In this document: positions 10,345 through 27,523 of the stretch, piece by piece | Numbering within the stretch: the first letter of the stretch is position 1 | How the letters are laid out: each line of letters opens with the position of its first letter | From: Gemmobacter nectariphilus | Lineage (GTDB): Bacteria > Pseudomonadota > Alphaproteobacteria > Rhodobacterales > Rhodobacteraceae | Reading direction: 5' to 3' | NCBI GenBank assembly: GCA_020721445.1 | Contig: DYMU01000017.1 | Location: forward strand, 1-62,419 | Length of the DNA stretch: 62,419 bases | Made by a program: the position numbers and the translations under genes | The notes under the pieces: generated by a model | Seen by the model: only the letters and a program-made list of their open reading frames with translations | Databases searched by the model: none | What the model was told of the DNA's origin: nothing

Positions 10345-10845
10345 TTACCAGCTGGCCTGGATGGCCTGGGCCGCCAGACCGATCATCACCGGCACCGGGG
10401 CTGACAGGATCAGGCGGCGGATCAGGAAGGTCGGGCCCATCAGCGCCAGTTCGCTGCCCAGGGTGCGGGTCAGGCTGATGATGGACCAAGAGGTCAGGTA
10501 GGCCAGCAAAGCCCCGGTGCCGGCCCCCGCCTTGAATGCGGTTGCCGACAGGGCAAGCGCCACCATCGGCCCACCGGGTGTTGCGGCCCCCACAACCGTC
10601 GCCAGCAGGATGCCGGTGATCCCCTGCTCGGGGCCAAACAGCGCCGCCATCTGGCCCTTTGGCAACAGCGCCGCCATGAAACTGGCCCCCGACAGGCCGA
10701 TCACCGTGCGCGGCAACATCACAAGGAAGGTCGCACGGGCCGCCCGCCATACCTGAGGCAGTTTGGCACGATCCACCCTTGCGATGTGGCGCAGCAGCGC
10801 GAAAGCGGCCCCCCAGATCAGCACGGTGCCGATGATGACATTCAT
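10345..10845 (-). CDS. Half-size permease, second of a split pair (DUF318/ArsP-like)
   Basis: A 166-residue membrane protein with about four hydrophobic segments. The central motif P-G-G-P sits after V-V-G-A-A-T and is followed by an alanine/glycine-rich helix (F-K-A-G-A-G-T-G-A-L-L-A-Y-L-T-S-W). The upstream neighbour carries a matching segment, so the two proteins look like the two repeats of one PF03773-type permease encoded by separate genes. Its ATG overlaps the upstream stop in an ATGA junction (10842-10845), implying translational coupling. Last gene of the operon, ending 55 bp from tRNA-Thr. Substrate unknown; efflux of a pathway product is a guess. Confidence 0.65.
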   Translation of the reverse strand: MNVIIGTVLIWGAAFALLRHIARVDRAKLPQVWRAARATFLVMLPRTVIGLSGASFMAALLPKGQMAALFGPEQGITGILLATVVGAATPGGPMVALALSATAFKAGAGTGALLAYLTSWSIISLTRTLGSELALMGPTFLIRRLILSAPVPVMIGLAAQAIQASW

Positions 10846-11447
10846 CGCCGGTGGCCCGGGTGCGCATCGTCAGGTAGCGGCACCCGCCGCGCCCAGATCC
10901 GCGCAAGCTGCCCGACCGCCACCGGAACCCACAGCGTCAGCACCAGCCGCAGCGCCACCAGCCAGCCCGGCAGGAACGACAACTCCCAGATCAGCACGCG
11001 GTTCAGGCCCAAAAGCACCCAGCCCGACACCATCGCCGTGCCCGCGCCCGCATCAGCCCCGGCCCGCATCAGCCCCATCGCCAGCGGATAGGTGACATGC
11101 GGCCCGCCCGGCACCACCGCCCCTGCCCCGCTGGCGATCACCAGCCCGCGCAGTCCGCTGTCGGGCCCGACAAGGCGCAACACCCGGTCGCGCGGCAGGA
11201 TCATCGACAGCGCGATGGCCAGCAGGATGCCGCCAAAGATTTTCGGCAGCAAGGACAGGATCATGGCGGTATCGCCCCAGAGCAGGTGAAAGAACTGCCC
11301 CGGGCCTTGGGTGATCCACACCGCGATGCCGGCACTCAGGCTAAGGCTGGCGATGAACAGCAAGCCAAAATCGACCCGGAACCGCCGCGCCTCGGGCGGG
11401 GGCAGGCGGGCTGGGCCGTTTTCGATGGGGTCAAAGTCGGTGGCCAT
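10842..11447 (-). CDS. Half-size permease, first of a split pair (DUF318/ArsP-like)
   Basis: A 201-residue membrane protein with a soluble N-terminus (MATDFDPIENG) and about five hydrophobic segments. The core I-F-G-G-I-L-L-A-I-A-L then A-G-A-V-V-P-G-G-P then G-A-D-A-G-A-G-T-A-M-V-S-G-W repeats the pattern of the downstream gene. In classic PF03773 permeases the P-x-C-S region often has cysteines; here both halves have P-G-G-P. ATG 11447 is chosen; an in-frame start at 11513 would lie deep in the phosphodiesterase gene. It overlaps that gene by 17 bp. The family call rests on pattern only. Confidence 0.65.
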   Translation of the reverse strand: MATDFDPIENGPARLPPPEARRFRVDFGLLFIASLSLSAGIAVWITQGPGQFFHLLWGDTAMILSLLPKIFGGILLAIALSMILPRDRVLRLVGPDSGLRGLVIASGAGAVVPGGPHVTYPLAMGLMRAGADAGAGTAMVSGWVLLGLNRVLIWELSFLPGWLVALRLVLTLWVPVAVGQLARIWARRVPLPDDAHPGHRR

Positions 11448-12891
11448 GGTCGATGACCACCCGCCCATCGCCTGCGCGCAGCACCAGTTCCTGCGCAAAG
11501 CCGCCGGGACCATGGGCGGTCAGCCGCTGCTGTGCGGCGGGCGTGGTTGGGGTGGTGCGGTCCAGCGGCAGGGCGCGGCCATCGGCCTCGGCCAGCGGCG
11601 GCAGACCCAGAACCGCCAGCAGCGTCGGCGCAACATCCGGCAGGGCGCAGGGCCGGTCATCGACCCGGCCTTCGGTTTGATCCGGCAGGCGCAGGAAAAA
11701 CACGGTGGAAAGCTCGCCCGGCGCCAGCCCGCCATGCATCCCGCCTCCCAAGGGCACCCCGCCGCCGGTCATCAGCCCGCGCCCGGGCAGGCCGTGCTGG
11801 TCGGGGCCGGCTTCATCGGCCATCACATAGATCAGGTCGGCCGCGCGCGGATGGTCCAGATACACCGCCGACAGGGGCAGCGTGCCGGGCAGCGCCGCCA
11901 CCAGATCATCGCGGGCAAACACCATGCCGATTTCCGGGCGCTGCATCAGCCAGGCGGCGGTGTCGGCGCGCAGACCCGCATCCGTGCGCAAAAGCCGACA
12001 TTCGCCCATCCGTCCCAGCGTCAGCGCAATGGCGTCGCCGTTCTGCGGCGCGCGGGCGGCCTGCAATCCGGCGGCGCGCATCTCGGCCTCGATCCCCCAC
12101 AGGCCGCTGGTGGCAATCTGGCCGTGGTCCGACAGCGCCACCACCGCCGTGCCGGGGGGCGCTGCCGCCAGCAACCGGGCAAAGGCCGCATCCGCCGCCG
12201 CCATTGCAGCGCGCGTGGCGTCAGACCCGATCTCCAGATAGTGAAAGCTGGTGTCGGGTTCGGGGAACCAGACCAGCACCACCTCGGGGCCGGACGGATC
12301 GGCCAGGGCTGCGGCGGCAAGCCCTGCCACATAATCCACCTGCGCAACCTTCGGCGGGCCGTTTTGCGGCCTTGCGCCCTGCACCGCCTCGGCGGCCGTC
12401 ACGGCATCGGGCGTGGCGGTGGCATCCGTGCCGTGGATCGAGAACGTCGCGTGCCCCGCGTTGGCAGCCACCTCGGGGTTGATCAGGCAGGCCGACCCTG
12501 CCGAGCCGCCGTGAAACACCGCCATGCGCAGACCCGCCGCCGCCAATGCCTCGCCCAAGGTTTGCGGTGCCACCAGCCGCCCGCCCCAGGCCGCCCGCGC
12601 CCGCGCCAGATGGTCGAAATCCGACGTGTCAAGCGCCTGCCCGGTGACAACGTCGGGCTGGTGAAAGGCATTGCCGACAATTCCGTGCTGGCGCGGCCAA
12701 CAGCCGGTGGACAGCGCCGTGGTCGCCACCCGGGTCAACGACGGAAACACCGACCGCGCGCCGGCAAAGCGGGTGGCACCGTTGGCAAAGCTGGCCAGCA
12801 CGGGCATGCGGCTGGCCACCATGTCGGGGCGCAGCCCGTCGAACACCACGACAAGCAAACGGTTGGCGGCAGCCTGTGGTGCGGCGGTCAT
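11431..12891 (-). CDS. Alkaline-phosphatase-superfamily phosphodiesterase/pyrophosphatase
   Basis: A 486-residue enzyme of the NPP type. The metal-binding F-D-G (D18) is followed by the nucleophile region F-P-S-L-T with T53, which matches the NPP threonine. Further metal ligands fit E-P-D-T-S-F-H and S-D-H-G-Q, and a late H-G-G-L. No signal peptide, so it should act in the cytosol on an imported substrate. The family cleaves phosphodiesters, nucleotide pyrophosphates or phosphonoacetate; which one cannot be told. Its ATG overlaps the upstream isomerase stop (12888-12891), and its end overlaps the first permease half. Confidence 0.85.
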   Translation of the reverse strand: MTAAPQAAANRLLVVVFDGLRPDMVASRMPVLASFANGATRFAGARSVFPSLTRVATTALSTGCWPRQHGIVGNAFHQPDVVTGQALDTSDFDHLARARAAWGGRLVAPQTLGEALAAAGLRMAVFHGGSAGSACLINPEVAANAGHATFSIHGTDATATPDAVTAAEAVQGARPQNGPPKVAQVDYVAGLAAAALADPSGPEVVLVWFPEPDTSFHYLEIGSDATRAAMAAADAAFARLLAAAPPGTAVVALSDHGQIATSGLWGIEAEMRAAGLQAARAPQNGDAIALTLGRMGECRLLRTDAGLRADTAAWLMQRPEIGMVFARDDLVAALPGTLPLSAVYLDHPRAADLIYVMADEAGPDQHGLPGRGLMTGGGVPLGGGMHGGLAPGELSTVFFLRLPDQTEGRVDDRPCALPDVAPTLLAVLGLPPLAEADGRALPLDRTTPTTPAAQQRLTAHGPGGFAQELVLRAGDGRVVIDHGHRL

Positions 12892-13814
12892 TGGATGTCT
12901 CCGTTCAGTCGGGCAGCAAAGGCCTGGGCGGCGGCCAGGGTCGCTGCCTCGGAATGGGCTTTGAAATTGCGCTTGATCTCGATCACGATGCGGGTGTCGT
13001 CGCGCATCCGGGGCGCAAGCGTGGCAGCCAATGCGGCAAAATCCACCGCCCCCATGCCGGGTGGGGCATGCATGTCGCCGATGCCAAAGAAATGCCGCTC
13101 GCCCTGCGATTTGGTGGCAATCGTCGCGGGGATGCCGGTGCTGTCGGAATAGTGGATGTGGCCGACATGCGGCGCAAGGGCGGCGCAGGCGGTCAGCATG
13201 TCAAACCCCCACAGACCTGCGCCCTGCTGGGCATGGCTGATGTCCAGACAGGCGATCAATGCCGGATGCGCCACCGCCGCGATCTGCCGCGCAAGGGCGG
13301 CAGGGTCCAGCGAATACGAGGTTTCCTCACCCGCGATCACCCGGTCATTGGGCGAGATGTTTTCATAGGCGATGGTCACGCCCTGCGCGCCGGCATGGTC
13401 GGCCAGACGGGACAGCGCGTCGCGCTCGTAACTCAGCAGACTGTCGCGCCCGCCCAGCCAATCGCGCGGATGGCAGCGCCCCGGATGCAGCACGACAATC
13501 TGCGCGCCAAGCTCGGCGGCAAGGTCCATAGACACAAAGGCCGCGCGGCGGTGCAGATCGGCATGGGCGCGGTCCATCAGGTTGATGGCGATCGGCGCAT
13601 GCATCGAATAGGCCAGCGGGTGACGCTGCATGGCCGCGCGCGCGGCGGCCACCTGATGCGGGATCAGGCGGCAGGCCACCACCAGATCCATGCCGGTGGC
13701 GCTGATCTCGGCCCCGGTGCAGCCGATCTGCGCCAGTTGCTCCAGCCGCTGGGCAAAGGTGGTGACCGATCCTTCGGTCTCGCCGGTGTTGAACCCGGTT
13801 GCGATCACGCGCAT
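12888..13814 (-). CDS. Sugar phosphate isomerase/epimerase, TIM barrel (paralogue 1)
   Basis: A 308-residue AP-endonuclease-2-fold TIM barrel of the xylose-isomerase-like superfamily. The usual metal quartet can be placed: E in A-Y-E-N-I-S, D in C-L-D-I-S-H-A, H in H-I-H-Y-S-D and E in V-I-E-I-K. It shares I-N-L-M-D and G-I-G-D-M-H-A-P with the adjacent upstream protein, so the two are tandem paralogues. Such enzymes isomerise or epimerise sugars, sugar phosphates, inosose or keto-acids. The gene overlaps the upstream paralogue by 10 bp and the downstream phosphodiesterase by 4 bp. Substrate not identified. Confidence 0.82.
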   Translation of the reverse strand: MRVIATGFNTGETEGSVTTFAQRLEQLAQIGCTGAEISATGMDLVVACRLIPHQVAAARAAMQRHPLAYSMHAPIAINLMDRAHADLHRRAAFVSMDLAAELGAQIVVLHPGRCHPRDWLGGRDSLLSYERDALSRLADHAGAQGVTIAYENISPNDRVIAGEETSYSLDPAALARQIAAVAHPALIACLDISHAQQGAGLWGFDMLTACAALAPHVGHIHYSDSTGIPATIATKSQGERHFFGIGDMHAPPGMGAVDFAALAATLAPRMRDDTRIVIEIKRNFKAHSEAATLAAAQAFAARLNGDIQ

Positions 13815-14761
13815 GGCATATCCTCTGGTGTGGGTCGGGCGGGCAGCGCCTCACCGGTGTTGAAATAATCGGCAAAGCCTTTGGCTGCCGCCACAATCTC
13901 GGCCGCGCGGGCATTGTAGCGGCCGTTCAGCTCGATCCCGCCAAAGGTGCCGGGGCGCAGGCGCAACTGCGGCAACAGCGCCTCCCACGGAATGGTGCCA
14001 TCATGGATCGGGGCGTGCATGTCACCGATGCCCAGCGTGGCCGCATCGCCATCATCGCCCGGATTGCCGGGGCGGCCGCAGTTGTCGTGCAAATGCAGGT
14101 GCCAGACCAAGGGCGACAGCGCGGCCAGCGCCGGGATATAGTCAAAGCCCAGCGTGGTGGCCGACAGCCAGGCATGGCCAAAGTCAAGGCACACCCCCAC
14201 CGCCGGATGATCCACCGCGCCGATCTGTTCGGCCAGTGCCAAGGGGTCGGCGCCATAGCAATGCCGGTCCGGGTTGGCGATCAGGTTTTCCACCGCCAGC
14301 CGCACCCCGGCGGTAGCTGCCAGATCGCCCAGACGGCGAAAGGCGTCTTGCTCAGCCAACAGCGCCGCGCGGCCTGTTTCGGCAAACTCGGCCGGTGGCA
14401 GGTGGCCGGAATGGATCACCATCGAATGGGCGCCGATCAGACCGCAAGCCTGCACCGAAGCCACCGCCGCCTGCCAGTGCAGCGGATTGGCGGTGTCCAT
14501 CAGGTTGATGCCGTGGTTGGCGTGCAGCACCGGGCGCAGGCCCGCATCGGCACACATCTGACCGACCGCATCCAACCGCGAAAGGTCCAGCCGCCCGGCG
14601 ACGATCAGGTCAAGCCGGCGCGCGGTCAACTCTACATGGCTGCACCCCACCTCGGCCCAGCGGCGCAGGGTGGCGGGCACAAGGTCGATGCGCCCGGCGG
14701 GCAGCGCGTTCAGGTTCAGGCCAATGCCGTCGATGGTCTTCTTGGCAGGTCCAGCAGTCAT
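13805..14761 (-). CDS. Sugar phosphate isomerase/epimerase, TIM barrel (paralogue 2)
   Basis: A 318-residue TIM-barrel enzyme of the same family as its downstream neighbour. Predicted metal ligands are E in A-V-E-N-L-I, D in C-L-D-F-G-H-A, H in H-L-H-L-H-D-N and E in G-I-E-L-N. It shares G-I-N-L-M-D and G-I-G-D-M-H-A-P with paralogue 1, but the N-terminus (MTAGPAKKTIDG) differs. The two may act as successive isomerase/epimerase steps or as a heteromer; this is inference. It starts 6 bp after the stop of the permease gene. Confidence 0.82.
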   Translation of the reverse strand: MTAGPAKKTIDGIGLNLNALPAGRIDLVPATLRRWAEVGCSHVELTARRLDLIVAGRLDLSRLDAVGQMCADAGLRPVLHANHGINLMDTANPLHWQAAVASVQACGLIGAHSMVIHSGHLPPAEFAETGRAALLAEQDAFRRLGDLAATAGVRLAVENLIANPDRHCYGADPLALAEQIGAVDHPAVGVCLDFGHAWLSATTLGFDYIPALAALSPLVWHLHLHDNCGRPGNPGDDGDAATLGIGDMHAPIHDGTIPWEALLPQLRLRPGTFGGIELNGRYNARAAEIVAAAKGFADYFNTGEALPARPTPEDMPCA

Positions 14762-14767
14762 GGCAGG

Positions 14768-15640
14768 TCAATCCTCCAGCGATGGGTCAAGTCGGCTGCG
14801 CAGATGGTCGCCCAGCATCGACATCGCGAGGGTGCTGAGAAAGATCACCACCCCCGGCATCACCGCCAGCCACCACGCGTTGATCATGTAATCCCGCCCG
14901 TCGCCCAGAAGCTGGCCCAGCGAGGTCAAGGGCGGGCGGATGCCAAGGCCGATGAAGGACAGCGAGGTTTCAAACAGGATGGTTTCGGGAAAGTTGATGG
15001 TGATCTGCACGATCAGCGGCCCAAGGATGTTGGGCAGGATGTGGCGGGCATAGATCCAGCGCGGCGGTGCCCCCAGCGCATGCACGGCGCGGGCATAGCC
15101 CTGTTCGCGCGCTGTCAGCACCAGGCCCCGGGTGATGCGGGTATAGCGTTCCCAGCCATACAGCCCCATCAGCAGCAAGAACACCCACATCGCATTGCCC
15201 AGAAACGCCAGCACCGCCATCGCCACGATGAACCACGGCATTGCCGCCTGAAAATCGACCAGCGCCGAAATCGCCTCATCCACCCAGCCGCCGCGATGCG
15301 CGGCCAGAAACCCTGCCGCCGTGCCCAGCACCGCACCCAGCACCGTGCCCAGCAGGGCCAGTGCGATCGAGGTCTGGGTGGCGACCAGCAGGCGCGACAG
15401 CAGATCGCGGCCCAACTGGTCGGTGCCAAGGGGATGCGCCGGGTCATAGCCCGCCAGCGGAAACGGCGGCTTCATCCGGCCCAACAGGTCTGTCGCCTCA
15501 AAATCCCACGGCATCAGCAGTTGCGCCGCCAGCATGACGCCGATCATCAGCGACAGCCAGATCGCCGAAGCCAGCACAAGCGCGGGCATCCGTGGCGCGC
15601 GGGGTTTGGCCGGGGTTGCGGTCAGTGGCAGATCGGTCAT
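14768..15640 (-). CDS. ABC transporter permease, DppC/OppC type (transporter 2)
   Basis: A 290-residue inner-membrane permease with a long first helix, a periplasmic stretch ending G-T-D-Q-L-G-R-D-L-L-S-R (hallmark of DppC/OppC) and the cytosolic EAA loop (V-H-A-L-G-A-P-P-R-W-I, then H-I-L-P-N-I). It ends with L-G-L-G-I-R-P-P and a short tail. Family-5 importers move peptides, nickel, opines or sugar-containing compounds. Its ATG overlaps the DppB-type gene stop (ATGA at 15637-15640), so the two permeases are translationally coupled. Confidence 0.9.
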   Translation of the reverse strand: MTDLPLTATPAKPRAPRMPALVLASAIWLSLMIGVMLAAQLLMPWDFEATDLLGRMKPPFPLAGYDPAHPLGTDQLGRDLLSRLLVATQTSIALALLGTVLGAVLGTAAGFLAAHRGGWVDEAISALVDFQAAMPWFIVAMAVLAFLGNAMWVFLLLMGLYGWERYTRITRGLVLTAREQGYARAVHALGAPPRWIYARHILPNILGPLIVQITINFPETILFETSLSFIGLGIRPPLTSLGQLLGDGRDYMINAWWLAVMPGVVIFLSTLAMSMLGDHLRSRLDPSLED

Positions 15641-16578
15641 GCGCGCGCCCCTTTTGTGCGACCGACCCGCACCCTTGGGTCGGCCCAGCCGTAATACAGG
15701 TCCACCAACAGGTTGGTGGCCACCATGGTCGCGGCGATCAGGATCAGGATCGCCTGCACCACCGCCAGATCGCGCACCGCCACCGCATGCACCAACAGCC
15801 GCCCAAGGCCGGGCCAGGCGAACACCGTCTCGGTCACCACCGCGCCGCCGATCAGCTCGCCCACCTTGAGCCCCAGAATGGTGGCAATCGGCACCGAGGC
15901 ATTGGGCACCGCATGGGCAAACACCCGCCGCGCCTCGCTTGCGCCCTTGGATTTGGCGGTGGTCATGTAGGGCTTGGTCAGCACGTCAATCATCGCTGAC
16001 CGGGTAAAGCGCGCCAGTTGGGCGGCAAAGGCGGTGCCCAGCGTGAAGGCGGGCAGGATCAGATGCGCCGCCGTTTCAGACCCCGAAGACGGCAACCAGC
16101 GCAAATGCAGCGAAAAGGTCAGGATCAGCAGGATGCCAAGAAAGAAGTTCGGCATCGAAAAGCCGAACACCGCCGTGGTCATCACCGCGCGGTCCAGCGA
16201 CGACCCGCGCCACCATGCCGCCAGAATGCCCAAGGGCAGCCCGATGGCCAGCGAAAACCCCAGCGCCGTGCCGCCCAGCAACAGGGTTTTCGGCGCGCGG
16301 TCCATCACCATGTCCCAGGCGGGCAGGTTGTTGCGCAACGAGATGCCGAAATCGCCGGTCAGCAGCGCTGACCAATAGCTGAGGTATTGGTCCCAAAGCG
16401 GCCGGTCGAGGCCCCATTTGGCGCGGTAAAAATTGCGCACGGCATCGCTTGCGTCATCGGGCAACAGGATATCGGTCGGATCGCCCGAGATGCGCAGCAC
16501 AATGAAGACAAAGGTGATGACCAGCCACATGGTCAGCGCAGCGCGGATGGTCTTGGTGGCCAGAAATTGCAGCATCAT
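15637..16578 (-). CDS. ABC transporter permease, DppB/OppB type (transporter 2)
   Basis: A 313-residue inner-membrane permease with the DppB pattern: an N-terminal helix (W-L-V-I-T-F-V-F-I-V-L-R) followed by the periplasmic R-I-S-G-D-P-T-D, and the EAA-type loop A-K-S-K-G-A-S-E-A-R. It ends with the C-terminal Y-G-W-A-D-P-R-V-R-V-G. ATG 16578 is chosen because it forms an ATGA overlap with the upstream ATPase stop; an in-frame start at 16725 would overlap that gene by 150 bp. Pairs with the DppC-type protein encoded next. Confidence 0.9.
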   Translation of the reverse strand: MMLQFLATKTIRAALTMWLVITFVFIVLRISGDPTDILLPDDASDAVRNFYRAKWGLDRPLWDQYLSYWSALLTGDFGISLRNNLPAWDMVMDRAPKTLLLGGTALGFSLAIGLPLGILAAWWRGSSLDRAVMTTAVFGFSMPNFFLGILLILTFSLHLRWLPSSGSETAAHLILPAFTLGTAFAAQLARFTRSAMIDVLTKPYMTTAKSKGASEARRVFAHAVPNASVPIATILGLKVGELIGGAVVTETVFAWPGLGRLLVHAVAVRDLAVVQAILILIAATMVATNLLVDLYYGWADPRVRVGRTKGARA

Positions 16579-17639
16579 GCGGGCTCCCGTGCTGGCATCG
16601 GTGCCACGGCGGCGCGCGGCGCGGACAGCACATCCGCCAGCGATGGCAGTCCCGGCTCTCCGGCCCGGTGACAGGCCACGTCGGTGGCCCCCAGCGCGCG
16701 CAATACAGGCGCTTCGGTGGCACAACGCGGCACGGCCAACGGGCAGCGCGGATGGAACCGGCAGCCGCTTGGCGGGTGCTGCGGGCTGGGCGGATCGCCG
16801 GGGATCGCCACCCGCGCGCCGCGCCGGGCCGGATCAGCCACCGGCACCGACGCCAGCAGCGCCTGCGTATAGGGGTGGCGCGGGCGGGCGAACAATTCGG
16901 CCTTGGGCGCGATTTCCAGAATGCGGCCCAGATACATCACGGCCACCCGATGCGCGACATGGCGCACCACACCCAGATCGTGGCTTACGAACACATAAGA
17001 CAGGCCCAGATCGCGTTGCAGGTCATGCAGCAGGTTCACGATCTGCGCCTGAATCGACACGTCCAGCGCCGACACCGGCTCATCCAGCACCAGAAGGTCG
17101 GGGCGCGGGGCCAGGGCGCGGGCGATCACCACGCGCTGCACCTGGCCCCCCGACAATTCGCGCGGAAAGCGGTCCCACAGATGCGGGCCAAGGCGCACCT
17201 GATCCAGCACCTGGGCGCAGCGCGCATCCGGGTCGGGCTGGCGGTGGATCAGCAAGGGTTCGCGCACCTGGGTGCGCACGGTCAGGCGTGGGTCAAGTGC
17301 GCCGCCGGTATCCTGAAACACCATTTGCAGCCGGGTGCGCAGCGCGCGCCAGGCGGCACTGTCGGGCGCGGGCATGGCCGCGCCTTCGAACCGCACCTCC
17401 CCGGCCTCGGGCGCGGCCAAACCCACCAACAGCCGGGCAAGCGAGGATTTGCCGCAACCGGATTCGCCCACGATCCCCAGCGTCTCGCCGCGCGACAGCG
17501 TCAGCGACACGCGGTCCACCGCCAGAAAGCGCGTGGCGGGCCGCAACCAGCCGCGCCGCCCGGTGGCATAGCCCAGACTGACGCCATCAGCCGCCAGCAG
17601 GGGCGGCGGCAGCAAGGCGTCCAGCACAACATGCGACAT
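16575..17639 (-). CDS. ABC transporter ATPase, DppF/OppF type (transporter 2)
   Basis: A 354-residue ATPase. Walker A is G-E-S-G-C-G-K-S-S, the signature L-S-G-G-Q-V-Q-R, and Walker [16 protein letters not shown]. The C-terminal oligopeptide-ABC motif C-R-F-H-P-R-C-P is present and provides cysteines typical of these ATPases. It starts 3 bp after the DppD-type gene and overlaps the permease gene, so it belongs to the same transporter. An extra stretch after the signal region ([10 protein letters not shown] near the N-terminus) is usual for OppF proteins. Confidence 0.9.
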
Positions 17640-18626: not shown

Positions 18627-18725
18627 GGGGGGTCCGGTCTTCTGGGCAAAGGGGGGTGCGGCCAGCACGGGCCAGCCGCACCCCTTGGGTCAGCCGAAGG
18701 ATGGGTCAACCAATGGCGGGCAAGG

Positions 18726-20309
18726 TCACTGCGCGCCAAAGGTCAGGTTGTAGGGACGGAAATCCATGTAATACAGACCGTAAGGCTTCCAATTGACCTC
18801 GGCCCGCATCGCGTAGGTTTCCAGCGGGTTGTAAAGGATGGTGCCGGGGGCTTCGTCCATCCAGATCGCCAACGCCTCGCGGTAGGCTTCCTTGCGCGCG
18901 GCATTGTCCATCGAGCTGATCAGCACATCCTGCAACTCGTTGAACCGTTCGGGCGCGTTCCAGGTGCGCTCGGGGTATTTCTTGTTGTTCTGAACATCGG
19001 AATCCTTGCCCCATTGCGGCACGAAAGACCCCAGCGGATCGGGGAAGCGGTGGGTGTTCGACCAGGGCAGGATATGCGCGCCCGGCTCGGCCGCCTGGCT
19101 GTTGTTCTCGCGCGGCTCCAGCTTGACGTTCAGCCCGATGTCTTTCCACATCTGCTGCATCGCCTGCGCCGCCTCAAGGCTGAGCAGGTAGTAGTTCAGG
19201 CCAAGGCGATAGACGATTTCCTCGCCGTTATAGCCCGCCTCGGCCAGCAGGGCGCGGGCCTTGTCGGGGTTGTATTCAAACTCGGGGAAGTCTTCGACAA
19301 AGATGCCGTAGGACGGCAGTTGATGGCCGTTCGGGGTATAGTTCTTGTCTTCCCACAGCGCCTTGCGCAGCAGCGCACGGTCGATGCCAAGGCTGACCGC
19401 CTGACGCACCCGCTTGTCGGCCAAGGGGCCATAGGGGAACAGCCGCAGCACGTGGCTGTTGTCCAGCACGATGCGTTCCACCTTCAGATCAGGGTAGGAC
19501 TTGATGACCTCAACCTGATCCGGCGGGATGTTGACGGCGATGTCGTATTCGCCCGACACCAGACCGGCGATGCGGGCCGAAACCTCGGGCACCACCTTGT
19601 AGGTGATCGACGCGGCGGTGGGTTTGCCGCCGAAATAGTCGTCATGCGCCACCAGCTTCAGGTATTCGCCATCGACCCATTCCTCAACCTTGTAGGGGCC
19701 GGTGCCAACAGGCTTGCGGGCAAAAGCCAGCGCGCCGACGGTCAGGTATTCGCGGGCATTGACGATCCAGAACGAATAGCCGGCAATGCGCTGTTCCATC
19801 AGGATATCAGGCTCTTTCGACACGATCCGCACGTTATAGCGGTCCAGCGCGATGACGTGGCTGATCGAGTCCATGTAGGTTTTCGCTTCGGCAAACAGCG
19901 GCGCCTGACCACGGCCCCGGCCTTCAACCAAGGAGAACGCCACGTCGTCCGAGGTCATCTCGTCGCCATTGTGGAACTTGACGCCTTCGCGCAGCTTGAA
20001 ATCCATCGTGCGGTCATCGACGCGGGTCCAGCTTTCGGCCAGCCCCGGCACCAGGGCAGCCGAGGTGCCCGAGCCATCGGACAGGAAATCGCGGCGGATC
20101 AGGCTGTCAAATAGCGTGTAGGTGATGCGCACCGCGACGTTGCCCTGTTCTTCGATCGATTCAAGGCTGCCGGGAAGGGTGTTGACGGCCACGACAAGGT
20201 CGGGGCGGTCTTGGGCTGTGGCGGGCCGGGGCGCAAGGCCCAAGGCCGGGGCCGCGATCAGCGCCGCAAGGGCGGCAGATCGCAAGAAGCGGTTCAGGTA
20301 GGGTATCAT
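18726..20309 (-). CDS. Family-5 solute-binding protein (transporter 2)
   Basis: A 527-residue periplasmic binding protein with a Sec signal peptide (MIPYLNRFLRSAALAALIAA, cleavage likely after P-A-T-A). It has the SBP_bac_5 features L-R-E-G-V-K-F-H-N-G-D-E and G-T-G-P-Y-K-V-E-E-W. It shares D-I-A-V-N-I-P-P-D-Q with the second binding protein of the operon (D-I-A-T-N-I-A-P-D-Q), so the two are related. ATG 20309 is chosen since the signal peptide begins there. Ligand not readable; family members bind peptides, opines, sugars or metal chelates. Confidence 0.9.
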   Translation of the reverse strand: MIPYLNRFLRSAALAALIAAPALGLAPRPATAQDRPDLVVAVNTLPGSLESIEEQGNVAVRITYTLFDSLIRRDFLSDGSGTSAALVPGLAESWTRVDDRTMDFKLREGVKFHNGDEMTSDDVAFSLVEGRGRGQAPLFAEAKTYMDSISHVIALDRYNVRIVSKEPDILMEQRIAGYSFWIVNAREYLTVGALAFARKPVGTGPYKVEEWVDGEYLKLVAHDDYFGGKPTAASITYKVVPEVSARIAGLVSGEYDIAVNIPPDQVEVIKSYPDLKVERIVLDNSHVLRLFPYGPLADKRVRQAVSLGIDRALLRKALWEDKNYTPNGHQLPSYGIFVEDFPEFEYNPDKARALLAEAGYNGEEIVYRLGLNYYLLSLEAAQAMQQMWKDIGLNVKLEPRENNSQAAEPGAHILPWSNTHRFPDPLGSFVPQWGKDSDVQNNKKYPERTWNAPERFNELQDVLISSMDNAARKEAYREALAIWMDEAPGTILYNPLETYAMRAEVNWKPYGLYYMDFRPYNLTFGAQ

Positions 20310-20350: not shown

Positions 20351-20416
20351 CGGGCGGGCGGGAAAAAAGCCGGGCACGGGGAAAACGGGGCACGGGAAAA
20401 ACCGGGCACGGGAAAA
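20351..20416. repeat. Short GC-rich tandem repeat in the leader of the binding-protein gene
   Basis: Three units of 15-16 bases (20371-20385, 20386-20400, 20401-20416) with consensus GGGCACGGGAAAA, preceded by a degenerate unit from 20351. It fills the 120-bp gap between the fused-ATPase stop and the binding-protein start, the largest gap inside the operon. In the transcribed strand it reads as alternating T-runs and CCCGTGCCC blocks. No hairpin or protein-coding role is evident. Confidence 0.8.
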
Positions 20417-20429: not shown

Positions 20430-22250
20430 TCATGATCCTGCCCCTGCGGGCTGTGCCGCCATGTGATGCGTGACGCGGTCAACAGGGTCACGCTCTGCGC
20501 CGGCCCTTGGTGGCAAGGGCGCGGGGTCGTTGCTGGCAAGCGCGAAATGGCGCGGCCCGACGGCCATCAGCACCTCGCGCACGGGCCGGGTGCCACGCGG
20601 CAGGATGGCGGGCGGTGGCGGCATCAGATCGGGCATTGCGGTCATTGGTCCCCGCTTGGCAGGATCGGGCACCGGCACCGCCGCCAAAAGCCGCCGTGTA
20701 TAGGGGTGGGCCGGTGCCGCCAGCACCCGGTCAGTCGGCCCGATTTCGACAATGCGGCCCGCCTGCATCACGGCAATCCGGTGGCTGACCCGTTCGACCA
20801 CCGCGATGTCGTGGCTGATGAACAGGAACGACAGCCCGTCTTCGGCCTGCAACCGCGCCAACAGATCGGTGATCTGACGCGCGACCGAGACATCCAGCGC
20901 CGACACCGGTTCATCGGCCACGATCAGCGCCGGTCGCACCGACAGCGCGCGGGCAATGCACAGCCGCTGGCGCTGCCCGCCGGAAAACTGATGCGCAAAG
21001 CGGGTCATCGCCGCCGCCTCAAGCCCGACCTTTTCCAGCAGTTCCTCCGCCAGATCGTGCCGGCCGGCGCGGGTGACGGTGCCGTGGATCAGCGCCGGTT
21101 CGGTGATCAGGTCAGCCACCGTCAGGCGCGGGTTCAGGCTGGCGTAGGGGTCTTGAAACACCATCTGCGCCCGGCGGCGCAACGGGCGCATCTGCGCCGC
21201 CGACAGGCCGGTCAGCGGATCACCACACAGCCGAACCTGGCCAGCATCGACACCGATCAGCCGCAGACAGGCGCGCGCGAGGGTGGACTTGCCGCAACCG
21301 GATTCGCCGACCAGCCCCAGCGTCTCTCCGCGCCCGACGCTGAACGACACATCGCGCACCGCATGGAACTCGGGCCCCGGCGCAAAGGGCATGGCCCCCG
21401 GCAGGGCAAAGCGGACCGACAGGTTTTCCACCTGCAGCACCGGGTCCGACGGACGCGGGGCCGCGGGCGCGCCCGACCCCAGCCGCGGCGTGGCCGCCAT
21501 CAGCATTCTGGTATAGTCGGCTTGCGGCGCGCGGAATATCCGCGTCACCGGGGCCTCTTCCATTTTCTCGCCCTGTCGCAGCACCACGACGCGGTCAGCG
21601 ATCTCGGCCACCACCCCCATGTCATGGGTGATGAACAGCACGGCCATACCCGTGTCGGCCTGCAAGGTCTTGATCAGCGACAGGATTCCGGCCTGCGTGG
21701 TCACGTCCAGCGCGGTGGTCGGCTCGTCCGCGATCAAAAGGTCCGGCTGGCAGGCCAGCGCCATCGCGATCATCACCCGCTGGCGCAGACCGCCCGACAA
21801 TTCATGCGCGAACTGGCCATAGCGCAATTCGGGCTGCGGGATACGCACGCGGGCAAAGGCCTCAATCACCGCCGCATGCGCCGCCGCACCGTCCAAGCCG
21901 CGGTGCAGGCGCAACACCTCGGCCACCTGCGCGCCCAAAGGCATTACCGGGTTCAGCGCCGTCATCGGTTCCTGAAACACCATGGCGATGCGGTTGCCGC
22001 GGATGCGCCGCATCTGCGCCTCGGACGCGGCGGTCAGATCGGTGTCGCGCAGCCGGATGCGGCCTGCCGTGATCTGGCCGCCATCGCGCTCGATCAGCCG
22101 CATCAGCGCCAGCGCCGTGGCCGATTTGCCCGAGCCGGATTCGCCCACCAGCGCCACGGTTTCCCCCGGTTCCACCGCAAAGCTCAGGCCGCGCAGCGCG
22201 ACATGGCTGCCAAAGGCAAGGCTCAGGTTCTCAACCGACAGCAGCGGCAT
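20430..22250 (-). CDS. Fused double ATPase of an oligopeptide-type ABC transporter (transporter 1)
   Basis: A 606-residue protein made of two complete ATPase domains. Domain 1 (about 1-260) has Walker [10 protein letters not shown] and signature L-S-G-G-L-R-Q-R. Domain 2 (about 270-560) has G-E-S-G-C-G-K-S-T and F-S-G-G-Q-R-Q-R. Walker B is D-E-P in both ([18 protein letters not shown]). This is the GsiA/YejF architecture and makes a separate DppD/DppF pair unnecessary. ATG 22250 is chosen; GTG 22253 is also possible. It sits between the metallophosphoesterase and the second binding protein. Confidence 0.9.
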
Positions 22251-22256
22251 CACGGA

Positions 22257-23117
22257 TCAGCGCCCCCGACGCGCTTCGGGGTGGGCGGCAAAGTCGGGCA
22301 TCGGCGGCGTCCAGCGCGCAGCACGCGGGGTCAGGGTGACCTCGAAGGGATCAAGCCCGGCGACCTGCCAATGCACCCGGCCCTCGTCCAGTTCCAGCAA
22401 TCCCATCGCCCCGGCGGGCGCGCCCATGGTGGTAAAGCTTTCGGTCAGCGATTGCTGGGTCAGATGGGGGATGCCATCCACCGTGGTGACGGTGTTCCAG
22501 TGCACATGGCCCGCAAGGCAGACCACCGGCACCCGCGCCTGCGACAACGCCGCGCGCGCCCGGTCGGCCATCGGATAGACGGATGAGGCCGGGTTGTTCT
22601 GGAAGTAATAGTTGCCGATCTGGCTGTGGCCCGACAGCGGCACATGGCTGACCACCAGCAGCGGGCGATCGGCCGCCTGCGCCGTGCGCGACAGCCACAA
22701 AAGGTCCGCCTCGGTCAGCACAAAGCCCCGGCCTTCATCGCCGCGCCGGATGCGGCTGTCGGCCCGCCACAGCGCGATGCGCCAGCTGCCCAGATCGTGC
22801 ACCTCGTGGCCAAGGGATTGGCCCAGAATGTCCTCATTTTCCGCCACGCTCAGATGATCGCGGTCATGGTTGCCGCACAGGTGCCAGATCGGGGCCTGCA
22901 CCGCGCGCAACGCCTGCGCCACTTCGGTCTGCAACCGAAGATCGGTGTCTTGGTCCACATCGGAAATCCGGTCGCCAAGGTCCAGCACATGGCTCGCCCC
23001 GGCAGCGTGGGCAAAGCGGGCGAAATCCGCGATCAGGCCCAGCGCGGCATCGCCGCGTTTGGTGGCTGATGGCGCGCCGTGGTGAATGTCGGCGAGGATG
23101 GCAAGGCAAGTGGTCAT
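22257..23117 (-). CDS. Calcineurin-like metallophosphoesterase
   Basis: A 286-residue cytosolic enzyme with the complete calcineurin-fold metal set: D-I-H-H (D10, H12), G-D-R-I-S-D, G-N-H-D-R-D, S-H-V-P-L-S-G-H and G-H-V-H-W. These motifs bind two metals and hydrolyse phosphomono- or diesters; relatives include GpdQ and CpdA. No signal peptide is visible. It lies inside the transporter operon, 6 bp upstream of the fused ATPase, so it likely acts on the imported compound. Exact substrate unknown. Confidence 0.88.
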   Translation of the reverse strand: MTTCLAILADIHHGAPSATKRGDAALGLIADFARFAHAAGASHVLDLGDRISDVDQDTDLRLQTEVAQALRAVQAPIWHLCGNHDRDHLSVAENEDILGQSLGHEVHDLGSWRIALWRADSRIRRGDEGRGFVLTEADLLWLSRTAQAADRPLLVVSHVPLSGHSQIGNYYFQNNPASSVYPMADRARAALSQARVPVVCLAGHVHWNTVTTVDGIPHLTQQSLTESFTTMGAPAGAMGLLELDEGRVHWQVAGLDPFEVTLTPRAARWTPPMPDFAAHPEARRGR

Positions 23118-23180: not shown

Positions 23181-24728
23181 TCACTCGACCGAGATCGCGC
23201 CGGCGCGGAAGTCGAGCACGTAGGGAATGTGGCCGGCTTTCGGGGCCCAGGTCACGCCCTTGACCATCGCCCAGGACTCGTAGGGGCGATACAGCGGCAG
23301 CACCGCCGGATCGGCCTTCATGTGCTCCATCAACTCGGCATAAGCCGCCTTGCGGCCTTCCAGCGTCTCACCATAGCGAAAGCGCTCCCATGCCGCCTCA
23401 TAGGCCGGGGTGGTGTTGAAGCGGCCTTCCGATTGCGACGGGCCACCCGGCGCCCACATCACGCCAAAGCTGCCAAAGGGGTCGGCAAAATACATCGGGT
23501 TAGACCAGTTGCGGGTCATCATCTCGGGGTCGTTGCCGGTCCATTTCGGCAGATCGCGGATCACGCCCTTGACGCCGACAGCGGCCCACATCTCGGTGAT
23601 CGCCTGCGCCGCCAACAGACCGTTGGTGTAGTAGCTGCCCTGGGTGTCAAAGGTCACCTCAAAGCCGTCATAGCCGGCCTCGGCCAGCAGGGCCTTGGCC
23701 TTTTCCGGATCGTAACCGAAGGTCTTCAGGTCCGGCATGTAAAGCGGCCCGAACTCGGCATAGGTGTGGCTGTCAGGCACATGGGCCTTGCCCAGCCACA
23801 GCGCCTCGTTCAGCGCGTCGCGGTCGATGGCCAGCGACAGTGCCTGACGGATGCGGGCATCCTTCAGCTTGGGGTGGTTCTGGTTCAGGATCATCACGTG
23901 GAACAAGGGCGTCAGCATGCCCTCGGCCTTCAGATCGGCGTCACCCTCGATCAGCGCCAACTGGTCCGGCGCGATATTTGTGGCGATATCGGCCTCGCCG
24001 GTTTTCAGCGCGGTCAGGCGCGAGGCGACTTCGGGCACCAGTTGCACGGTCACGCGGTCCAACGGGGCGGCGTCGCCCCAGAAGCCGTCAAAACGTTCCC
24101 ACACCAGCTTGGTGCCGGGCACGAATTCGGCGACCTTGTAGGGGCCGGTGCCGACCGGGGCCAGCGAGAAGGCCTCGTAATCGGTATCTTCCGCGACCTT
24201 CGGATCACCCGACAGCGCCATGGTATAGTCCATCGGGATGATGAAGACCTGTTGCAGGTTGATCAGGGTTTCCCACAGCGGCTCGGCCCGTTTGGCGTGG
24301 ATGCGCACCGTGAAATCATCGACCTTTTCGGCCTTGGCAAAGTTTTCCAGCCGGTCACGGGCGCGCACCTGATAGGGCGCAAACGTCGCCTGATACATCC
24401 GGTTCAGCGAGAATACCACGTCATCGGCAGTCATCGCCTCGCCGTTGTGGAAGGTCACGCCCTGACGCAGTTTCAGTTCCATGACGGTGGGTTCGACCAG
24501 CGTCCATTCCGTGGCCAGACCCGGCTTCCACGCGCCGCCGACCACCGAATAATCCTTCTCGATCAAGGGGTCGAAGCTGTTGTAATAGAACTGCGAGCCG
24601 ACGTTGGAATGGTCGCGGCCCGGGTCCAGATAGGTGGACATATTGGCGGCGGCGATGGTGATCTCGGCAGCTTGCGCCCCCGAGACAAGGGTCAGGCCAA
24701 GGGCCGATGCAGACAGCAGGCGTTTCAT
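23181..24728 (-). CDS. Family-5 solute-binding protein (transporter 1)
   Basis: A 515-residue periplasmic binding protein with a signal peptide (MKRLLSASALGLTLVSGAQA, cleavage after A-Q-A). SBP_bac_5 motifs: L-R-Q-G-V-T-F-H-N-G-E-A and G-T-G-P-Y-K-V-A-E-F. The relation to the other binding protein of this operon is clear from several aligned blocks, but identity is not high by eye, so they probably bind different or differently sized ligands. It follows the permease pair of transporter 1 by 57 bp. Confidence 0.9.
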   Translation of the reverse strand: MKRLLSASALGLTLVSGAQAAEITIAAANMSTYLDPGRDHSNVGSQFYYNSFDPLIEKDYSVVGGAWKPGLATEWTLVEPTVMELKLRQGVTFHNGEAMTADDVVFSLNRMYQATFAPYQVRARDRLENFAKAEKVDDFTVRIHAKRAEPLWETLINLQQVFIIPMDYTMALSGDPKVAEDTDYEAFSLAPVGTGPYKVAEFVPGTKLVWERFDGFWGDAAPLDRVTVQLVPEVASRLTALKTGEADIATNIAPDQLALIEGDADLKAEGMLTPLFHVMILNQNHPKLKDARIRQALSLAIDRDALNEALWLGKAHVPDSHTYAEFGPLYMPDLKTFGYDPEKAKALLAEAGYDGFEVTFDTQGSYYTNGLLAAQAITEMWAAVGVKGVIRDLPKWTGNDPEMMTRNWSNPMYFADPFGSFGVMWAPGGPSQSEGRFNTTPAYEAAWERFRYGETLEGRKAAYAELMEHMKADPAVLPLYRPYESWAMVKGVTWAPKAGHIPYVLDFRAGAISVE

Positions 24729-24785: not shown

Positions 24786-25664
24786 TCATCTTGCCCGCAG
24801 GCGCACGTCGGCGCGGTCGCGGGCAAAATCGCCCAGCACCTGCACGACAAAGGTCACGGCAAGGATCAGCACCGACGGCGCCAGCACGATCCACGGCGCG
24901 ATCGGCATGTAATCGCGCCCCACGCCGACCATCGCGCCCAGCGTGGCGGTGGGCGGCTGCACGCCAAGGCCCAGAAACGACAGGCTGCTTTCCAGCAGGA
25001 TGATGTTGGAAAACGACAGCGTCATCTGCACCACGATGGGCGAGATCAGGTTGGGCAGCAGATGCACCAGCGCGATGCGGCGCGGCGTGGCCCCGGCGGC
25101 GCGGGCGGCCTCGACAAAGGGCATCCGCATCAGGCGGCGGGTTTCCGCGGCAACGATACGGGCATATTGTTCCCACCCCGCCACGCCCAGCAGCAGGATC
25201 ATCACGCCGAAGGACGACCCGAACAGCGCCAGCACGAACAGCGCCACCAGCGTGAACGGAATGGCGATCTGCATGTCGACCGCGGCCATGATCGCGGCTT
25301 CGGTCCGTCCGCCCGCCACCCCGGCCAGCAGCCCCAGCGTGGCGCCGATGGCAAGACCCACAAGCGTGCCCAGAAAGGCCAGCGACAGCGTCAGCCGCAG
25401 GCCATAAAGACAGCGCGCCAGCAGATCACGGCCCAGCTCGTCGGTGCCCAGCAGGTAGCCCGCTTTCGCCCCGGCAAAGCCCAGCGGTGGCTTCAATCGC
25501 GACATCAGGCTTTGGTCGGTGGGGCCGTGTTGCGCCAGCCATGGCGCAAGGACGGCGGCCAGCACCAGAACCGCCCCCAGCATCAGCACGACGCGGTGAA
25601 ACGCGCCTAGGCTGCGCCAGAACGCCAGGCCGGGTCGGGCCCGGGCAAGGGCAAACCCGGTCAT
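24786..25664 (-). CDS. ABC transporter permease, DppC/OppC type (transporter 1)
   Basis: A 292-residue inner-membrane permease with the DppC hallmark G-T-D-E-L-G-R-D-L-L-A-R, an EAA-type loop (A-A-R-A-A-G-A-T-P-R-R-I, then H-L-L-P-N-L) and L-G-L-G-V-Q-P-P near the C-terminus. ATG 25664 is chosen because it overlaps the DppB-type stop as ATGA (25661-25664); a longer frame to 26318 runs through that gene and is not real. Confidence 0.9.
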   Translation of the reverse strand: MTGFALARARPGLAFWRSLGAFHRVVLMLGAVLVLAAVLAPWLAQHGPTDQSLMSRLKPPLGFAGAKAGYLLGTDELGRDLLARCLYGLRLTLSLAFLGTLVGLAIGATLGLLAGVAGGRTEAAIMAAVDMQIAIPFTLVALFVLALFGSSFGVMILLLGVAGWEQYARIVAAETRRLMRMPFVEAARAAGATPRRIALVHLLPNLISPIVVQMTLSFSNIILLESSLSFLGLGVQPPTATLGAMVGVGRDYMPIAPWIVLAPSVLILAVTFVVQVLGDFARDRADVRLRAR

Positions 25665-26599
25665 CGCGCTGCCTCGGCCGCAGCGCGGCGCAAGCGCGGA
25701 TCGGCCCAGGCATAGGCCAGATCGGTCAGTGCCGAAATTGCCAGCACCGCCACCGACACGACCACCACGCCAAATTGCAGCACCGGATAGTCGCGCCGGA
25801 TAGCGGCGTTCACCAGCAGATCCCCGATCCCCGGCCAACTGAAAATCGCCTCGACCACCACCGACCCCGACGCCGCCAGCCCCGCGATCTGCAACCCCAC
25901 CACCGACAGGATGGTGATGCCCGCATTGCGCAAGCCGTGACGCAGGATCACCGCCCGTTCCGGCAGGCCCTTGGCGCGGGCGGTGCGCATGTAGTCCTGC
26001 CCCAGCACATCCAGCATGGCGTTGCGGGTGAACCGCGACAGCGCGGCGATCAGCCCGGCCGACAGCACCGCCACCGGCATTACAAAGTGCGCGGGCGATC
26101 CGTTGCCCACCACCGGCAGCCAGTTCAGCCAATAGGCGAACACCAGCACCAGAAGCGTGGCCAGCACGAAATTGGGGACCGCATAGCCCAGAAAGGCCAG
26201 CCCCATTGCCAGATGCCCCGGCCAGCGGTCGCGCCAGATTGCGGCGACAATCCCCATCGGGATCGCCAAAAGCAGCGTCACCGCGACCGAGGCCAGCAAC
26301 AGTTGCGCCGAGGGCCACAGCCGTTCCGCCACGATCTGCGCCACCGGGCGGCGTTCAATGAACGACAGACCGAACTGGCCGTCGGTAAAGGCGCGCAGGA
26401 AGGCGGTGTATTGCTCCCACATCCCGCGGTCCAGCCCGTAATAGCGGGTCAAAAGCACCCGGTCCTCGGTCGTCAGGCCTTGGGCACCGATCGACTCCAG
26501 CGGGTCGCCCGAAAGCCGGGTGGCCAGAAACACCAAGGTGACGATGGCCAGAAACGAAAACACCATCCGCAGCGCGGTGCGCAGGACCAGCCTCAGCAT
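25661..26599 (-). CDS. ABC transporter permease, DppB/OppB type (transporter 1)
   Basis: A 312-residue inner-membrane permease with the DppB pattern: first helix (F-L-A-I-V-T-L-V-F-L-A-T-R), then L-S-G-D-P-L-E-S, the EAA-type loop (A-R-A-K-G-L-P-E-R-A) and C-terminal Y-A-W-A-D-P-R-L-R. It overlaps the HAD gene by 7 bp and the DppC-type gene by 4 bp, so it is translationally coupled to both. Confidence 0.9.
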   Translation of the reverse strand: MLRLVLRTALRMVFSFLAIVTLVFLATRLSGDPLESIGAQGLTTEDRVLLTRYYGLDRGMWEQYTAFLRAFTDGQFGLSFIERRPVAQIVAERLWPSAQLLLASVAVTLLLAIPMGIVAAIWRDRWPGHLAMGLAFLGYAVPNFVLATLLVLVFAYWLNWLPVVGNGSPAHFVMPVAVLSAGLIAALSRFTRNAMLDVLGQDYMRTARAKGLPERAVILRHGLRNAGITILSVVGLQIAGLAASGSVVVEAIFSWPGIGDLLVNAAIRRDYPVLQFGVVVVSVAVLAISALTDLAYAWADPRLRRAAAEAAR

Positions 26600-27357
26600 G
26601 GCGCGCCCTGTGCGGCTGCGGCTGCCATCGGGGCAGCAATGTGAACGAACCGGATGCCGGCCCGCTGGGCGGCCTGACCGTCGGTTTCCGGCGTGTCGCC
26701 CAGAAACACCGCCCGGTCGGCGGCCACCCCGGCGCGGGCCAGCGCGATCAGCCCAAGGTCGGGCGCGGGCTTGCCCAGCGAGGCGAAGACATGCCCCGGC
26801 AGCATCGACCGCACCGCCGCCAGCAGCGCCCCGGTTTCCGGCCGCGGTGTTCCCCCCGGCCCCGGATGCGCCGGATCGATATTGGTCACCTGCAAAGGCA
26901 CGCCGCGGTGCAGCAGCGCCACAAGCTGGGTCAGACGGTTGAAATCAAAGCTGGTGTCACGCGCCAGCACCGCCAGATCGGGGGTGTCATGGTCAACGAC
27001 CAACCCCAGATCCTGCGCCAGCGCCTGCATCCGGGGGCCTGCGAAAAGCGCCACACGCGGCGCACCGCCGGCGGCCAGCTGGCGCAGCGTCTGTTCGCCC
27101 GCCAGCACGATGCGCCGGGGGTCAAGCGTCAGCCCCAGGCCGGCCAGATGATCCGACAGGCTTTGCGCCGTATCGGTTGAATTGTTCGACACGATCCACA
27201 ACCGACCCTCGGCCTGTTCGAACACCGCAGCGGCACCGTCGCACAGCAGGCCACCCGTCATCAGACAGCCATCCAGATCGGCCAGCACAGCCCCCGCCTT
27301 GCAGCATCCGGCGGCGATGGCCTGTCGCAGGGAAAGCGGGGACGCGAACGCAGACAT
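26593..27357 (-). CDS. HAD-superfamily class IIA (NagD-like) phosphatase
   Basis: A 254-residue cytosolic phosphatase. Motif I is D-L-D-G-C-L with D27 as nucleophile and D29 as acid/base; motif II I-V-S-N-N-S-T; late motif G-D-T-P-E-T-D, and G-K-P-A-P as the lysine region. This is the class IIA (NagD, p-nitrophenylphosphatase) pattern. It is the first gene of the minus-strand operon, facing a divergent LysR gene. It probably removes a phosphate from an intermediate of the pathway; the substrate is not known. Confidence 0.85.
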   Translation of the reverse strand: MSAFASPLSLRQAIAAGCCKAGAVLADLDGCLMTGGLLCDGAAAVFEQAEGRLWIVSNNSTDTAQSLSDHLAGLGLTLDPRRIVLAGEQTLRQLAAGGAPRVALFAGPRMQALAQDLGLVVDHDTPDLAVLARDTSFDFNRLTQLVALLHRGVPLQVTNIDPAHPGPGGTPRPETGALLAAVRSMLPGHVFASLGKPAPDLGLIALARAGVAADRAVFLGDTPETDGQAAQRAGIRFVHIAAPMAAAAAQGAPC

Positions 27358-27483
27358 CAGGGTTTCCCTTGCGAAAAGCCGGTCAAAACCGGCGCAGAAC
27401 AGGATCGGCGGGGGCGCGCGTCTTGGCCTGTCGGCAAAAACCGGCCTGATTCATCCGAATGATGTGACTGTGACGCCTGCGCT

Positions 27484-27499
27484 GTAACCGCGCTGTTAC
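27484..27499. promoter_or_regulatory. Candidate LysR operator (inverted repeat)
   Basis: GTAAC-N6-GTTAC lies in the 166-bp divergent gap, 24 bp before the LysR start and about 127 bp from the HAD gene start. An inverted repeat in this place suits autoregulation and divergent activation by a LysR protein. A second weak symmetric stretch (TCAT-N4-ATGA) lies just upstream at about 27448-27461. Prediction only. Confidence 0.35.
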
Positions 27500-27523
27500 G
27501 CCTGAAGCCTAAGACTTCGAAAC

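Follow-up and report, generated by a model that had tools for sequence, protein, structure and literature searches.

The window analysed here, a 62,419-nucleotide stretch of the Gemmobacter nectariphilus genome (assembly GCA_020721445.1, contig DYMU01000017.1, positions 1 to 62,419), contains an uninterrupted minus-strand run of 16 genes, from 27357 down to 10345, that encodes two family-5 ATP-binding cassette (ABC) importers together with several putative phosphoesterases. The genes are free of internal stops and their GC content at third codon positions is 0.79-0.86; five 4-bp overlaps occur along the run, and the widest intergenic gap measures 120 bp (fused ATPase to second binding protein), the second widest 99 bp. 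An earlier note on this DNA had described the single-strand run, the overlaps and the 120-bp limit correctly, but counted 15 genes; there are 16, and a divergent gene for a LysR-type regulator (27524-28426, plus strand) also belongs to the set. Promoter-like and terminator-like signals within the operon (1 against 2.2 in shuffles, and 14 against 11.2 with a standard deviation of 3.3, respectively) are as frequent as in shuffled sequence.

Pfam and NCBIfam scans of the window proteins, supplemented by structural searches and residue alignments that set aside homologues with stops, N or less than 85% coverage, identify the products of the run, most of which fall into two modules, all genes lying on the minus strand. 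Module 1 comprises a HAD-IIA-like phosphatase, a candidate monoesterase (26593-27357), DppB-type and DppC-type BPD permeases (25661-26599 and 24786-25664), a family-5 (SBP_bac_5) binding protein designated SBP1 (23181-24728), a metallophosphoesterase (22257-23117) and a fused double ABC ATPase resembling OppD plus OppF (20430-22253). Module 2 comprises a second SBP_bac_5 protein, SBP2 (18726-20309, with the ATG at 20309 preferred to a possible GTG start at 20393), OppD-type and OppF-type ATPases (17643-18626, using the ATG at 18626 where a GTG at 18668 is also possible, and 16575-17639), a second pair of DppB-type and DppC-type permeases (15637-16578 and 14768-15640), two AP_endonuc_2 TIM barrels, TIM1 (13805-14761) and TIM2 (12888-13814), and an NPP-type enzyme of the alkaline phosphatase superfamily, a candidate phosphodiesterase (11431-12891).

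Of the sequences in the PDB, AccA, the agrocinopine receptor, comes closest to each of the binding proteins, scoring 355 bits with SBP2 (next kind 113) and 248 bits with SBP1 (next kind 112). The AccA study names Asn54, Tyr375, Tyr376 and Ser419 as the phosphate contacts (PMC4526662). This quartet is kept in both SBP1 and SBP2, which upholds the link to agrocinopine import that the earlier note had drawn, and it is complete in none of the six other family-5 binding proteins of the same genome. An alignment of SBP1-type proteins retains the quartet in 92 of 93 rows, some of which represent the same genome twice; the remaining row has a gap at position 54, and two further rows, distant paralogues of 26-27% identity, lack the quartet. 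In NCBIfam, SBP1 and SBP2 match models of the Nik, Opp, Dpp and Gsi types, in every case with a score well short of the cut-off. Outside the phosphate site, SBP2 keeps Y145 and N284 of the six other contacts of C58 AccA and has lost W178, M372, E434 and E510, whereas SBP1 keeps none of the six. As these contacts differ both from C58 AccA and between the two proteins, the alcohol part that is preferred should not be the same for SBP1 and SBP2; contact losses alone may nevertheless leave a related ligand for either. In a tree the two fall into separate supported clades, SBP2 in the same half as AccA and SBP1 in the sister clade, on which ground a recent tandem duplication of one cassette is rejected.

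The association between this receptor type and phosphodiesterases extends across the class. Ten AccA-like proteins were combined into a profile with which 387 genomes of the class were searched, the three best candidates per genome being scored, and the scores show a gap between 441 and 351 bits with no listed value between. SBP1 and SBP2 lie on the AccA side, at 732 and 655 bits, by construction as both are in the profile alignment; the PDB pairwise scores are independent of the profile. Thirty-six regions above the gap were compared with 44 of the next-best below it, which served as control family-5 loci; one binding protein, the top scorer, was taken per region, though some regions contain two. 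The quartet is present in 29/36 AccA-like loci and in 0/44 controls. Profiles for metallophosphoesterases, NPP-type enzymes and GDPD, applied together as a panel at E 1e-5, matched within 9 kb in 25/36 AccA-like loci versus 3/44 controls (Fisher p 3e-9), a count that leans towards the proposed association because the panel profiles were partly built from AccA neighbours. The matches are concentrated in quartet-positive loci (24/29), as against 1/7 quartet-negative AccA-like loci, giving 24/29 versus 4/51 for all others (p 1e-11). When only printed panel scores of at least 100 bits are counted, the linkage stands at 22/29 quartet-positive loci versus 1/44 controls, and with only the first locus per genus at 15/18 versus 2/30 (p 8e-8). 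A neutral Pfam scan of 87 same-strand neighbouring open reading frames of quartet-positive genes found Metallophos six times, GDPD four times, Phosphodiest twice and PhoD once, the first two being the commonest among the 25 of 50 families listed. Around controls (138 open reading frames, after 8 long ones of 146 were dropped) GntR/FCD and peptidases M81 and M24 lead, and the 25 families listed, out of 97, include none of the four phosphoesterase families, though a single match could be hidden. AccA-like proteins with an altered quartet occur in seven loci (L144, L146, L147, L148, L153, L163 and L166), of which six lack a diesterase neighbour; a change of ligand is possible there.

The 286-residue metallophosphoesterase of module 1 has no Pfam or NCBIfam match at E 1e-3. 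Its aligned family, however, displays the invariant motifs DxH, GD, GNHD, H and GHxH, and its AlphaFold model (predicted local distance difference test score, pLDDT, 86.5) matches 2nxf, Rv0805 and GpdQ best, so that an earlier calcineurin-like label is borne out despite the missing family match. With these metal motifs and this predicted fold the protein is of the class III phosphodiesterase/GpdQ-like type, and diesterase activity is predicted; at 14-16% identity to GpdQ and Rv0805, it forms an importer-linked family of its own. The HAD protein exceeds the Pfam Hydrolase_6 cut-off and reaches 73.5 bits with TIGR01460 (HAD-IIA), below the cut-off of 100.15; its DLDG core is invariant in 17/17 family members. 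In module 2, the NPP-type enzyme scores 100 bits with PF01663 (cut-off 23), and the motifs that supply metal ligands and nucleophile in the alkaline phosphatase superfamily are conserved throughout its family. NPP structures (2gsn, ENPP6) are its best PDB matches and PhnA is more distant, the score with the PhnA equivalog model being 20.5 against a cut-off of 407.55; identity within its own importer-linked set is approximately 30-45%.

The two TIM barrels, which are paralogues of 36% identity, had been described as sugar isomerases. In both, each of the nine metal ligands known from endonuclease IV is present, in TIM1 as H80, H117, E158, D193, H196, H223, D247, H249 and E277. The ligand numbering of the Escherichia coli enzyme is assumed here, its residues having been confirmed in the gene sequence, and the first ligand was placed by eye on a common INL motif because the aligner shifted it in Nfo. 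A sugar isomerase or epimerase would be expected to show a single-metal E/D/H/E set without the other endonuclease IV ligands, and UlaE has four or five of the nine by alignment. PDB sequence matches of TIM1 comprise MJ1311, several endonucleases IV and, at the limit, AsbF; NCBIfam matches both barrels with nfo and CbiR alone, weakly, at 20-23 bits against cut-offs of 105 and 244. CbiR is reported to be a demonstrated phosphodiesterase of the AP_endonuc_2 superfamily (PMC7733943). TIM1 and TIM2 share with CbiR and endonuclease IV the barrel and its ligands, but fall far under both cut-offs, and the operon contains no cobamide or DNA-repair gene. Of the six AP_endonuc_2 matches in the genome, four have the nine ligands: TIM1, TIM2 and two that flank a carbon-phosphorus (C-P) lyase cluster. 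Because of the full ligand set, the barrels look like phosphodiesterases and the isomerisation step of the earlier note is unsupported; its other gene identities (phosphatase, importers, paralogous barrels, alkaline-phosphatase-superfamily enzyme and split permease) stand and only the isomerase label falls. A chemistry is thereby suggested for a set of AP_endonuc_2 proteins often called sugar isomerases.

The distribution of the modules was followed in 80 named loci, collected via homologues of the metallophosphoesterase and compared with the window proteins by tblastn, with flanks of at most 10 kb and several contigs ending early. The module 1 order (lysR diverging from HAD, permease, permease, SBP1, metallophosphoesterase, fused ATPase) is kept in 57/80 loci and across genera, so the arrangement of this module is not due to chance. 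SBP1 has a match in all 80 loci (in L104 merely a distant family-5 protein), HAD in 70 and LysR, nearby, in 67. Module 2 adjoins module 1 in just five, L033, L051, L059, L060 and L099 (SBP2 at 60% identity or more), and in L060 it lies upstream on the other strand; the single joint pathway that had been proposed is therefore unsupported. Module 1 is itself patchy, as the metallophosphoesterase is present in 13/295 genomes of the family, this genome counted, and absent from the one other genome of the genus that was searched. On a Halomonas plasmid, module 1 stands next to a relative of module 2 that has a GDPD gene, rather than TIM barrels, before the NPP-type gene. On rhizobial plasmids, distant relatives of the metallophosphoesterase (36-43%) are accompanied by HAD and RpiR genes and adjoin importers of BMP-like or Ugp-like type, which are unrelated to those of family 5.

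The intergenic region between lysR and HAD contains a candidate operator of the divergent promoter, GTAAC-N6-GTTAC (27484-27499). The general form, GTNAC-N6-GTNAC, is found in 42 of 56 such regions (55 loci plus the window, among which relatives are not independent), against a dinucleotide-shuffle mean of 0.075; when all spacings from 3 to 12 were compared, the sole others to occur were 3 and 9, once each. A longer form, CTGTNAC-N4-CTGTNAC, has one exact occurrence in the 3.07 Mb genome. Eight occurrences of this longer form with one mismatch allowed equal the eight of the reversed control, so the exact site alone is notable. Perfect T-N11-A LysR palindromes appear in 1/56 regions, as in shuffles. 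A Pho box upstream of HAD was considered and rejected: mismatch counts beat simple shuffles, but the signal is the GTNAC-N6-GTNAC element itself, which may be read as PhoB-related. LysR is the likely binder of this element. The best NCBIfam model of LysR is the aminoethylphosphonate-associated type TIGR03339, at 166 bits and below the cut-off of 341.

Taken together, the operon is best read as a tandem pair of acc-like cassettes, each taking up a small phosphodiester or phosphonate monoester that is then hydrolysed inside the cell, a reading to which we assign a probability of roughly 0.77. Phosphate-ester uptake and cleavage is favoured because no protein of solved structure is closer to either receptor than AccA, whose four phosphate-contact residues are kept. 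The periplasmic AccA-type protein of each cassette would bind a small molecule via its phosphate (or phosphonate) ester group, as homology and the kept contacts suggest, and would then pass the intact ester to the family-5 importer. In the cytoplasm the ester would be cut by the metallophosphoesterase in module 1, and by the NPP-type enzyme and the two endonuclease-IV-type barrels in module 2, while the HAD-IIA enzyme of module 1 may free phosphate from the resulting monoester. At least module 1 is probably under the control of the divergent LysR, acting at GTNAC-N6-GTNAC. The sequences themselves show the homologies, the retained residues, the linkage of the genes and the recurring promoter element; the activities, the ligands, the order of these steps and a shared transcript are what we infer. 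On this evidence the operon suggests an unrecognised route of organic phosphorus scavenging.

Working like acc is here kept apart from being acc. The acc operon of Ti plasmids (AccA, AccF, AccG and AccR; agrocinopine and agrocin 84) has in common with the window operon an AccA-like binding protein, a family-5 importer and a linked phosphodiesterase and phosphatase, and phosphodiester import is predicted by analogy. It possesses, however, a GDPD-type enzyme (AccF) and an inositol-monophosphatase-type enzyme (AccG). Neither type has a match in the window, in agreement with the earlier view that the enzyme set differs from acc, whereas the pTiC58 record matches both (GDPD weakly, at 26 bits). The acc regulator is of the DeoR type, an annotated DeoR/GlpR-type regulator being found in L122, and acc lacks the tandem arrangement of two importers. 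Membership in acc is rejected: the receptor type agrees, but the types of phosphodiesterase, phosphatase and regulator and most non-phosphate contacts do not. Since the enzyme set differs and most other AccA contacts are not kept, the substrates probably differ too. Uptake of intact organophosphates by Rhodobacterales is also reported for the glycerol-phosphate importers GpxB/UgpB of marine bacteria, which differ from the window operon in belonging to other binding-protein families and in carrying monoesters (PMC12718374). A literature search by titles and abstract openings returned, among the matches listed, no AccA-like importer outside agrocinopine plasmids, with subscription papers outside its scope and other gene names possibly missed.

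Several observations weigh against this interpretation. AccA is reported not to bind phosphate alone (PMC4526662), so the substrate cannot be read from the conserved phosphate site, and two annotated K84 accA genes also lack several of the C58 contacts, so these do not cleanly separate agrocinopine receptors. In the survey the loci are not independent of each other, the neutral Pfam scan covered only part of the open reading frames, five of the 29 quartet-positive loci lack a diesterase match (one, L155, on a 5.3-kb contig) and two of the 24 diesterase-linked loci rest on weak matches of 27 and 39 bits. Regarding the barrels, ketose 3-epimerases are the top Foldseek matches of the TIM1 model, whose pLDDT falls below 50 over residues 226-254, the region of D247 and H249, and an annotated 'sugar phosphate isomerase' of Rhizobium etli (L115) has 8/9 ligands. 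The joint arrangement of both modules is rare, and HAD was not found in 10/80 loci, where some contigs end early. In L033, the nearest relative (protein identity 91-97%), HAD is cut down to a remnant of its two ends at approximately 6400-6515, as read by eye; the phosphatase can therefore be lost.

Two further proposals are special cases of phosphoester import. The first, which is possible but on balance not favoured, holds that the operon scavenges glycerophosphodiesters or inositol phosphodiesters from phospholipid headgroups. The proximity of the metallophosphoesterase fold to GpdQ, the presence of remote relatives of the enzyme pair next to Ugp-like importers, the GDPD matches in 10/36 AccA-like loci and the inclusion of glycerol-3-phosphate phosphatase among HAD-IIA relatives are all consistent with it. 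The operon, however, contains no glycerol-phosphate genes, and the AccA site is described as recognising a pyranose 2-phosphate (PMC4526662).

The second, a more tentative and unlikely case, proposes import of methyl- or hydroxyethylphosphonate esters of sugars, such as those of marine dissolved polysaccharides, from which the diesterase-like enzymes would free alkylphosphonate for the C-P lyases of this genome. A Sulfitobacter study reports use of sugar phosphonate esters and postulates an ester-cleaving enzyme, with PhoD-like and phosphonate-monoester-hydrolase candidates (PMC5649143). In support of this proposal, the genome has two phnJ genes and a phn cluster flanked by nine-ligand barrels, LysR lies nearest to the aminoethylphosphonate type, though below cut-off, and on annotated plasmids AccA-like importers stand beside phnF (L123-L125) or PEP-mutase-family genes (L119, L120). 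Of these five phosphonate-linked proteins, however, only that of L123 has the full quartet; position 54 is not Asn in L119, L120, L124 and L125, and L124 also lacks Ser419. The operon itself holds no C-P bond gene, HAD-IIA and GDPD enzymes suit ordinary phosphate esters equally, and no habitat is established for the genome. The phn cluster lies on contig C27 of the same genome, at approximately 61-77 kb (L221), and comprises phnH, phnJ, phnM and phnC, with phnG- and phnL-like matches below cut-off; it is flanked by the two barrels and a weak metallophosphoesterase match, which are possibly phosphonate-ester or cyclic-phosphate esterases. Near the AccA-like importers, the rhizobial and Roseibium plasmids also carry genes for CDP-alcohol phosphatidyltransferase (L123-L125), cytidylyltransferase-type enzymes (L120, L123, L125) and aepX (L120), as if each of the plasmids of L120 and L123-L125 both made and consumed a phosphodiester or phosphonate compound, by analogy with opines.

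The scheme of the earlier note, in which all gene products together would dephosphorylate and isomerise a single phosphorylated glyco-compound step by step, is improbable. The genes do form one run, and the Foldseek ranking of TIM1 leaves room for a sugar role. Against this, the modules seldom adjoin, the barrels have the full endonuclease IV ligand set and NCBIfam sees in them just nfo and CbiR, and three AccA-linked loci, two of them from one genus, pair a barrel of this kind with GDPD. Despite the Foldseek ranking, a reading of TIM1 and TIM2 as sugar isomerases is rejected on the ligand set. Family-5 importers usually carry peptides or metals, and the binding proteins' sub-threshold NCBIfam matches are of such types, but it is very improbable that these are plain importers of peptides or nickel whose neighbouring hydrolases are unrelated to them, given that AccA leads the next kind by over 130 bits, that the quartet is absent from all 44 control proteins and that diesterase linkage is 24/29 versus 3/44.

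If the AccA family proved to be a general phosphoester receptor, marked by the quartet and linked to phosphodiesterases across Alphaproteobacteria, many importers annotated for 'peptide transport' would be organic-phosphorus scavengers, and the four residues would offer a direct means of finding them. It would then become testable which enzymes cleave imported phosphate and phosphonate esters from organic matter. A bolder and rather doubtful extension is that AccA-type receptors serve a broad importer class, in Alphaproteobacteria and a Halomonas, for whole sugar phospho- and phosphonate esters that are cut intracellularly by diesterases able to replace one another, among them a new TIM-barrel esterase of the endonuclease IV type, with alkylphosphonate here feeding C-P lyase; the operon would then provide the ester cleavage that is still missing from the pathway for marine polysaccharide phosphonate esters.

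The minus-strand run ends with two PF03773-like permease halves. The first occupies 10842-11447, with the ATG at 11447 chosen as an uncertain start, and the second 10345-10845, its score of 25.5 bits lying below the Pfam cut-off of 32.3. In Roseibium polysiphoniae two stretches homologous to the second half (L051, 12887-13698) sit between module 1 and module 2, so that the halves seem tied to the system. Directly downstream of the operon lie a tRNA-Thr (TGT) gene (10214-10289, plus strand) and a SelO gene (8504-10147, minus strand).

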